Positions 27,617 to 29,336 of a stretch of 64,000 nucleotides of DNA are shown one piece after another. Source of the stretch: Gammaproteobacteria bacterium (lineage in GTDB: Bacteria > Pseudomonadota > Gammaproteobacteria > Steroidobacterales > GCA-2729495); assembly GCA_023383705.1 (NCBI GenBank), contig JAHDYM010000001.1:1-64000 (forward strand), read 5' to 3'. The notes beneath the pieces were generated by a model that saw only the letters and a list, made by a program, of their open reading frames with translations, did no database searches and was not told the origin of the DNA. Position numbers and translations under genes: made by a program. How positions within the stretch are numbered: the stretch's first letter is position 1; the number at the start of each line of letters is the position of its first letter.

Positions 27617-28302
27617 TCCGTTTCGAGAACGTCAGCAAGCGCTACGACGGCGCGCGCGAGGCGCTGTCGAATGTCTCCATCGAGGTGGCAGCCGGCGAAC
27701 TGGCCTTCCTGACCGGCCGTTCGGGTGCCGGCAAGAGCACCGTGCTGAAGCTGGTGGCGCTGATCGAGCGCCCGACGCGCGGGCAGGTCATCGTCGGCGG
27801 CCGCCCGCTCGCCAGGCTCGGCTATCGCGACGTGCCGGCATATCGCCAGCAGATCGGCATGGTGTTCCAGGACAACCGGCTGCTGAATGACCGCAGCGCC
27901 TACGAGAACGTGGCGCTGCCGCTGATCATCAGCGGCACCGGCGAACGCGAAATCGGCCGGCGCACCCGTGCCGCGCTCGACCAGGTCGGATTGCTGGACC
28001 GGGAAAAATATCCGCCACGGGCACTGTCGGCCGGCGAACAGCAGCGGCTCAGCATCGCGCGGGCAATCGTGAGCCACCCCAAGGTGCTGATCGCCGATGA
28101 GCCGACCGGCAACCTCGACCCCGACCTGTCGCTGGAGATCATGAACCTGTTCCGGCGGCTGAACGAGGTCGGTGTGACGATGCTCATCGCCAGCCACGAC
28201 CTGCCGCTGGTGGAGAGGTTCGGCAGCCGGCGCATCGTGCTGAGCGGCGGGCAGGTCAGCGGCAGCGAAAGCACCGCTCAAACCACAGGCGCCGGCAAAT
28301 GA
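27613..28302 (+). CDS. ftsE: cell division ATP-binding protein FtsE
   Basis: MIRFENVSKRYDGAREALSNVS; GRSGAGKSTVLKL; LSAGEQQRLSIARA. Confidence 0.97.
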   Translation: MIRFENVSKRYDGAREALSNVSIEVAAGELAFLTGRSGAGKSTVLKLVALIERPTRGQVIVGGRPLARLGYRDVPAYRQQIGMVFQDNRLLNDRSAYENVALPLIISGTGEREIGRRTRAALDQVGLLDREKYPPRALSAGEQQRLSIARAIVSHPKVLIADEPTGNLDPDLSLEIMNLFRRLNEVGVTMLIASHDLPLVERFGSRRIVLSGGQVSGSESTAQTTGAGK

Positions 28303-29219
28303 GTGCCGGGATATTGCTGGCCCGGCATGCACAGAACCTGCTCGGCGCGCTGGGCGCACTGACCCGCAATCCGGTCGGCACCTTCCTGACCGTATCGGTG
28401 ATCGGCATCGCCCTGGCGCTGCCGGCCGCCCTGCACGTGCTGGTGCAGACCGGCAAGTCTGCAGCCGGCAACTGGGACGATATGCGGGACTTCTCCGTGT
28501 ACATGGCGCCGGCAACACCGCTGCCACGGGCGGAAACGCTGGCGCGCGAACTTCGCAAGCGGGACGGCATCGACTCGGTACAGCTGATCACTGCCGAGGC
28601 TGCAGTCGCGGAGATGGGCAAGGATCCGGTCTTTGCCAATGCGCTGGCAGCCCTGGAAGGCAATCCCCTGCCGCACACGCTGGTGGTGCGGCCGGCAGCG
28701 GGCATGGACGGCGAACAACTCGGTAAGCTCAGTGCGGAGCTGCAGGCGACGCCCGACGTCGACCTGGTAAAACTCGACCTGCAGTGGGTGCAGCGCCTCA
28801 ATGCCATCCTGGATTTCCTGGCCCGCCTCGGCTGGATTGCAGCCGTGCTGCTGGGCGGTGCCGTACTCATCATCGTCGGCAACACGATCCGCCTCGACAT
28901 CCAGACCCGGACCGAGGAAATCGAGGTCGCCAAGCTGCTCGGCGCGACGGACAGCTTCGTGCGCCGACCCTTCCTGTACCTGGGACTCTGGTACGGTCTG
29001 TTCGGAAGCCTGCTGGCGACGCTGATCCTGGCCATCAGCCTGTGGCTGCTCGGCGCTCCGGTTGCCCGGCTGGCAACGCTGTACGGGAGCGACCTCGAGA
29101 TGGCCGGCGTCGGGCTGGAAACCCTGGCGGCGGTCCTCGGCGGAGGGCTGCTGGCCGGCTGGAGCGGCGCCTGGCTGGCGGTAAGCCGACACCTGTCCGG
29201 GCTGCGCCCGAGGGACTGA
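28299..29219 (+). CDS. ftsX: cell division protein FtsX
   Basis: Overlaps ftsE; MacB/FtsX-type permease with TRTEEIEVAKLLGATDSFVRRPFLYLG. Confidence 0.95.
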   Translation: MSAGILLARHAQNLLGALGALTRNPVGTFLTVSVIGIALALPAALHVLVQTGKSAAGNWDDMRDFSVYMAPATPLPRAETLARELRKRDGIDSVQLITAEAAVAEMGKDPVFANALAALEGNPLPHTLVVRPAAGMDGEQLGKLSAELQATPDVDLVKLDLQWVQRLNAILDFLARLGWIAAVLLGGAVLIIVGNTIRLDIQTRTEEIEVAKLLGATDSFVRRPFLYLGLWYGLFGSLLATLILAISLWLLGAPVARLATLYGSDLEMAGVGLETLAAVLGGGLLAGWSGAWLAVSRHLSGLRPRD

Positions 29220-29285
29220 AGATCTATTGCAAGTCCTTGTTTCAGAAACTGACTTGTGCGCTGCATCAAGGAACTGAAGGGCGTT

Positions 29286-29312
29286 TTAGCACTCCAAGCT
29301 GGCGAGTGCTAA
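29286..29312. promoter_or_regulatory. CIRCE element (HrcA operator)
   Basis: TTAGCACTC-N9-GAGTGCTAA, perfect match to CIRCE consensus, 24 bp upstream of the rpoH start codon. Confidence 0.93.
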
Positions 29313-29336
29313 GATCGTCTTCAGGGAGGTGCGCGC

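Follow-up and report, generated by a model that had tools for sequence, protein, structure and literature searches.

Genomic context of the operator

The window (the whole 64-kb stretch of DNA that was analysed) belongs to a 2.93-Mb genome assembly of 162 contigs that is 96% complete, and carries the conserved gene order ftsY-ftsE-ftsX-rpoH (ftsY, TIGR00064, 335 bits; ftsE, TIGR02673, 272 bits), with an intergenic distance of 117 bp between ftsX and rpoH (Table 1). An earlier, sequence-only reading of this DNA had named the last of these genes as that for sigma-32, and the equivalog match to TIGR02392 (395 bits against a cut-off of 323.1) agrees; both the Sigma70_r2 and Sigma70_r4 Pfam domains were found in its 287-aa product. 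Upstream of the gene lies TTAGCACTC-CAAGCTGGC-GAGTGCTAA, an exact CIRCE with 0 mismatches in its 18 defined bases, and here too the reading was right, both in placing an exact operator directly upstream of rpoH at 29286-29312 and in counting 24 bp from its end to the ATG (29337). This is the single CIRCE match in the window, and dinucleotide shuffles (n = 100) gave 0. A chance palindrome is ruled out by the shuffles together with the position, at groESL, of the sole near-exact second copy in the genome.

Table 1. Features of the ftsX-rpoH region, in window coordinates.
Feature	Coordinates	Strand	Evidence or remark
ftsX, upstream neighbour of rpoH	28299..29219	+	TIGR00439, 313.6 bits
sigmaE-type -35, GGAACT (predicted)	29270..29275	+	Block shared by 58 relatives, -16 to -11 from CIRCE
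CIRCE operator, TTAGCACTC-N9-GAGTGCTAA	29286..29312	+	Exact match; predicted HrcA site
sigmaE-type -10, TCCAA (predicted)	29293..29297	+	Lies at CIRCE positions 8-12, with 17 nt between it and the -35 hexamer
Likely sigma70 extended -10, TGC-TAAGAT (TGCTAAGAT)	29307..29315	+	CIRCE right arm plus 3 bases
Shine-Dalgarno GGGAGG of rpoH	29324..29329	+	7 nt 5' of the ATG; read from sequence
rpoH, heat-shock sigma factor sigma32, 287 aa	29337..30200	+	TIGR02392, 395 bits; NF005143, 409 bits

The predicted HrcA regulon

Searching the whole 2.93-Mb genome with the CIRCE pattern at up to three mismatches returned three sites. Besides the one at rpoH, a second copy with one mismatch (TTGGCACTC...GAGTGCTAA) lies upstream of groES on contig C139; the third has three mismatches, falls within a TonB-receptor-like ORF and is probably a chance match. 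Beyond rpoH, a CIRCE was found at groESL alone among the operons of this genome. A sigma32-type promoter (CTTGAAA...CCCCTAT) stands immediately upstream of the groESL operator, and a block resembling such a promoter is seen at most of the groESL CIRCEs in 28 relatives.

The repressor gene that the sequence-only reading presupposed is present once and intact: hrcA lies on contig C154, encodes 352 aa (PF01628, 217 bits; PF03444, 29 bits) and heads the gene order hrcA-grpE-dnaK. No CIRCE-like site within three mismatches occurs in this hrcA-grpE-dnaK region (G000:C154:5440-8461, L005), which rules out autoregulation of HrcA via a recognisable CIRCE here. With CIRCEs at rpoH and groES and none at hrcA, the predicted HrcA regulon therefore consists of groESL and rpoH.

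Conservation of the operator within the order and the class

We collected rpoH upstream regions from 60 genomes spanning 27 genera and 16 families of the window's GTDB order, and found a CIRCE with at most one mismatch in the same place in 58 of them. G023 (L014) has two perfect arms around a 10-nt spacer instead of 9, and so was rejected as a true exception. CIRCE spacing is normally fixed, and the 10-nt spacer of G023 is unusual. G048, the only order relative without the arms, lacks CIRCE throughout its genome and lacks hrcA too. HrcA was detected in 56/60 of these genomes; G004, G049 and G054, where it was missed, keep the operator, and G004 is only 70% complete.

For the class Gammaproteobacteria, an evenly drawn sample of 102 rpoH upstream regions was taken from 101 genomes, with no family represented by more than one genome; the presence of HrcA was recorded for these genomes as well, and CIRCE was counted at up to two mismatches. 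The operator precedes 64 of the 75 rpoH genes from HrcA-bearing genomes, against 2 of the 27 from genomes in which no HrcA was detected (Fisher p = 3.7e-13, with families treated as independent). Eleven of the 75 genes from HrcA-bearing genomes thus have no clear CIRCE, three of these being weak cases. In further HrcA-less gammaproteobacteria, CIRCE was found before rpoH in 0/9, and among Pseudomonadota outside the Gammaproteobacteria in 0/16 rpoH upstream regions, the latter ruling out an extension to other classes of the phylum. Four genomes across our samples (G049, G054, G073 and G152) have a CIRCE before rpoH and no HrcA detected with PF01628, and represent either incomplete assemblies, a divergent HrcA or recent loss. 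One genome, G088, has two rpoH genes (L192, L195), one with CIRCE (one mismatch) and one without, and offers a natural test of subfunctionalisation between sigma factors.

The order and class surveys together rule out a peculiarity of one genome. The arrangement described by the sequence-only reading is thus real and conserved in relatives, as the reading had proposed to check, but it is no local oddity and extends class-wide.

Predicted promoter elements interlocked with CIRCE

Aligning the upstream regions of the 58 order relatives with a site, each anchored on its best CIRCE, revealed three conserved blocks beyond what CIRCE requires. The first is GGAAC(T/C) at -16 to -11 from the operator, with 84-90% conservation per position at -15 to -12. 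The second lies in the CIRCE spacer, where positions 10-12 are TAA or CAA (72/93/83%), bases that the operator does not need; TAA at these positions combines with T8 and C9 into TCTAA, which reads TCCAA in the window and follows GGAACT at a distance of 17 nt. The third is AAT at CIRCE positions 28-30, with T30 in 58/58, which joins the right arm to give TGC-TAAAAT (TGCTAAGAT in the window), a sigma70-type extended -10. The outer blocks distinguish rpoH operators from those at groESL: T30 is found in 60/66 rpoH CIRCEs of the class sample versus 0/28 groESL CIRCEs of the order, and GAAC starting at -14 to -16 in 42/66 versus 0/28, about a third of the class-sample rpoH CIRCEs having no GAAC at the sigmaE position.

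The first two blocks point to a sigmaE promoter, whose consensus layout is a GGAACTT-type -35 and a TCNNA-type -10. Taking this layout with a spacing of 16-17 nt and conservation among relatives as the standard, we find GGAACT-N17-TCCAA in the window, and the genome has an orthologue of E. coli-type RpoE (TIGR02939, 295 bits; cut-off 236). The block is also conserved in named Xanthomonadaceae and in Ectothiorhodospira; Ectothiorhodospira, Thioalkalivibrio and Silanimonas have an exact CIRCE with GGAAC at the same offset or within one base. CIRCE is thus predicted to be embedded in a sigmaE-type promoter, with the -10 element within its left arm and spacer.

A sigma70 extended -10 promoter that uses the CIRCE right arm is likely, as TGCTAAGAT agrees with the extended -10 pattern TGNTANNNT. 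It is a weaker claim than the sigmaE-type promoter: the -35 candidate (TTAGCA at 29286, spacer 18 nt) is weak, with 4/6 matches, and a sigma70 consensus scan at a threshold of 9/12 gave no match at the rpoH promoter. Extended -10 promoters can work without a -35.

In the 23 loci checked, anywhere from 61 to 174 bp separate CIRCE and the beginning of the rpoH match, whereas GAAC, where present, stays at -15 or -16. With the spacing between promoter and CIRCE fixed and the distance to the gene variable, operator and promoter therefore form one unit. In a further variation on the operator, the region upstream of rpoH at L211 (G067) has a second right-arm-like copy, AGAGTGCTAAAAT, directly 5' of a full CIRCE; the double arm perhaps represents tandem operators.

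The sequence-only reading had proposed that two heat-shock controls are combined hierarchically at this site. The computations support that hierarchy; what the reading missed are the overlapping sigmaE-type and sigma70-type elements, which make the site a three-input control point rather than a combination of two controls.

A proposed regulatory circuit

We consider it likely that HrcA represses rpoH, alongside groESL, at a composite sigmaE/sigma70 promoter through the embedded CIRCE. HrcA binding, the repression of rpoH, the identities of the promoters and their transcription starts are all predicted from comparative sequence evidence, and the circuit is set out here in those terms. The sigmaE-type promoter (-35 at 29270, -10 at 29293) would start transcription near 29304, and the probable sigma70 extended -10 promoter at 29307-29315 near 29322. 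Relative to the predicted sigmaE start, HrcA on CIRCE would then cover about -18 to +9, and relative to the predicted sigma70 start the stretch from the -35 to the -10; because the operator overlaps both -10 elements, an HrcA dimer should exclude RNA polymerase from both promoters.

HrcA activity depends on GroEL, as established in other bacteria. By analogy, cytoplasmic misfolding in this organism would draw GroEL off HrcA, leaving the repressor inactive and releasing rpoH and groESL together. Envelope stress would feed into the rpoH promoter region through sigmaE. sigma32 would in turn drive groESL, and restored GroEL would re-activate HrcA, so that feedback from GroEL closes what is predicted to be a coherent feed-forward loop.

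Decay of the operator and alternative explanations

The rpoH site has changed in the Xanthomonadaceae. In Stenotrophomonas, Pseudoxanthomonas and Luteimonas it is mostly TTAGCAGTC-N9-GACTGCTAA, with both arms changed symmetrically, and the groESL CIRCE of these genera mostly keeps the canonical inner bases GCACTC/GAGTGC (one Pseudoxanthomonas site is mixed). In Xanthomonas the rpoH site is CCGGCAGTC...GACTGCTAA, the outer left arm having decayed and GTCCAA being retained. The promoter parts persist in the family, with GGAAC at the -35, GTC(C/G/A)AA, and TGCTAA-GAT, the last sometimes in a slightly different form. HrcA is present in 5/5 Xanthomonadaceae genomes checked, and the symmetric operator change with HrcA present is seen at L124, L128, L083, L110 and other loci of the family. 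Either HrcA tolerates the altered rpoH site or rpoH has left the regulon. Perhaps the C-to-G change at position 7, which turns CTCNAA into GTCNAA, makes a better sigmaE -10. The HrcA-less G228 (L303) keeps GGGAACTT...TCAGA and TGCTAGACT (AGTGCTAGACT) and has lost the left CIRCE arm; its upstream region has the appearance of a fossil promoter left over from the composite element. Promoter elements thus outlive the operator, and the complete operator tends to be lost together with HrcA.

These variant sites bear on three other accounts of the rpoH CIRCE. HrcA might bind the site with little effect, sigma32 being controlled mainly, as in E. coli, through translation and DnaK/FtsH-dependent turnover. 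Published data for S. maltophilia, whose rpoH site is a variant, would accord with this: after 10 min at 42 C its rpoH transcript showed no significant change, and rpoE was up 5.9-fold (PMC6479208). This flat rpoH mRNA is a point that the HrcA model leaves unexplained. The S. maltophilia site is, however, an altered form of the operator, and the maintenance of all 18 defined bases over many families suggests a selected function, such that we consider an ineffective operator unlikely.

We give still less credence to the idea that CIRCE is no longer an operator and is kept only since parts of it double as the sigmaE -10 and the sigma70 -10. Both promoters do overlap the CIRCE arms, and Xanthomonas and the HrcA-less G228 keep the promoter parts while other operator bases have decayed. 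Yet CIRCE positions 1-6 and 19-21, needed by neither -10, are invariant or nearly so in the 58 order relatives, and genomes without HrcA almost always lack the full palindrome, an indication that it is maintained by HrcA rather than by the promoter. Least probable of all is a hairpin in the 5' leader of the rpoH mRNA that affects stability or translation, for example as a thermosensor: the inverted repeat is close to the start codon and the symmetric TTAGCAGTC..GACTGCTAA change in Stenotrophomonas, Pseudoxanthomonas and Luteimonas would preserve pairing, but the predicted starts lie within or after the operator and would give transcripts without the left arm, the distance to the gene varies widely while that to the promoter elements is fixed, and a site for a dimeric protein accounts equally well for the symmetric change.

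Returning to repression by HrcA, we used a tree of 52 RpoH proteins to follow operator and repressor through the class. The earliest-branching gammaproteobacterial row carries CIRCE, and the CIRCE and HrcA states need at least 5 changes on the tree, which fits an ancestral CIRCE with repeated loss. About 5 losses underlie the association on this tree, and the CIRCE and HrcA states are almost always concordant. Many forks are weak, and a co-loss test had only 2 well-supported independent pairs, too few for significance, so the tree alone is no proof that HrcA and CIRCE were lost together. On balance, we favour the view that repression of rpoH by HrcA, acting at a CIRCE that is interlocked with sigmaE and sigma70 promoters, is ancestral in Gammaproteobacteria and was lost several times with hrcA. 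The E. coli heat-shock paradigm, in which sigma32 stands at the top and no repressor controls it, would then be a derived simplification.

Comparison with known heat-shock systems

The two bacterial heat-shock strategies, an alternative sigma factor and the HrcA repressor, are usually presented either as alternative solutions or as parallel controls of chaperone genes. HrcA and CIRCE control groESL in Bacillus subtilis, Caulobacter and many other bacteria, with the operator over the promoter start region. The rpoH site shares its operator and repressor family with those systems, but its target is a sigma factor gene rather than a chaperone operon, and the predicted promoter elements lie inside the operator, where at groESL of those bacteria they are just upstream. 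Dual control of proteobacterial groESL by sigma32 and HrcA, an arrangement also seen at groESL here and in relatives, already brings both heat-shock systems together in one cell; there the two act in parallel, whereas at rpoH HrcA would act upstream of sigma32, creating a hierarchy.

HrcA control of rpoH is not new in principle, because it was predicted in 2004 for Geobacter sulfurreducens, which likewise has an exact CIRCE before its heat-shock sigma factor gene, at position -51 (Rodionov et al. 2004, PMC545781, Table 8). That species has further CIRCEs at groESL and hrcA-grpE-dnaK-dnaJ (PMC545781), whereas hrcA-grpE-dnaK in the window genome has none. As far as the relevant part of that study goes, Geobacter sulfurreducens, a delta-proteobacterium, is the only species with an rpoH CIRCE among those covered, and no overlapping sigmaE-type promoter is described for it (PMC545781); the arrangement reported here, by contrast, is shared by most of the HrcA-bearing gammaproteobacterial families that were sampled. 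Our full-text literature search found only the Geobacter case, and the class-wide gammaproteobacterial distribution and the interlocked sigmaE/sigma70/CIRCE architecture appear to be new. An earlier gammaproteobacterial report is possible; Permina and Gelfand, for example, reportedly studied these regulons in gamma-proteobacteria in 2003.

The E. coli rpoH promoter P3 is sigmaE-dependent, and the Pseudomonas rpoH promoter is AlgU-dependent. Both have in common with the rpoH promoter predicted here a GGAACTT-type -35, a TCNNA-type -10 and an envelope-stress input to sigma32; unlike in either, the sigmaE -10 here would lie inside an operator, and E. coli and Pseudomonas are not known to carry HrcA or a CIRCE at rpoH. 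The repressor appears to stand above the sigma factor in this genome and its relatives, at a promoter that would also read envelope stress via sigmaE. If this is true, three inputs meet within a single stretch of 46 bp, namely cytoplasmic folding through HrcA/GroEL, envelope stress through sigmaE and housekeeping transcription through sigma70, raising a testable question about the regulation of sigma32 where HrcA is still present, and HrcA-less E. coli has lost a layer of control that most of its HrcA-bearing relatives have kept.
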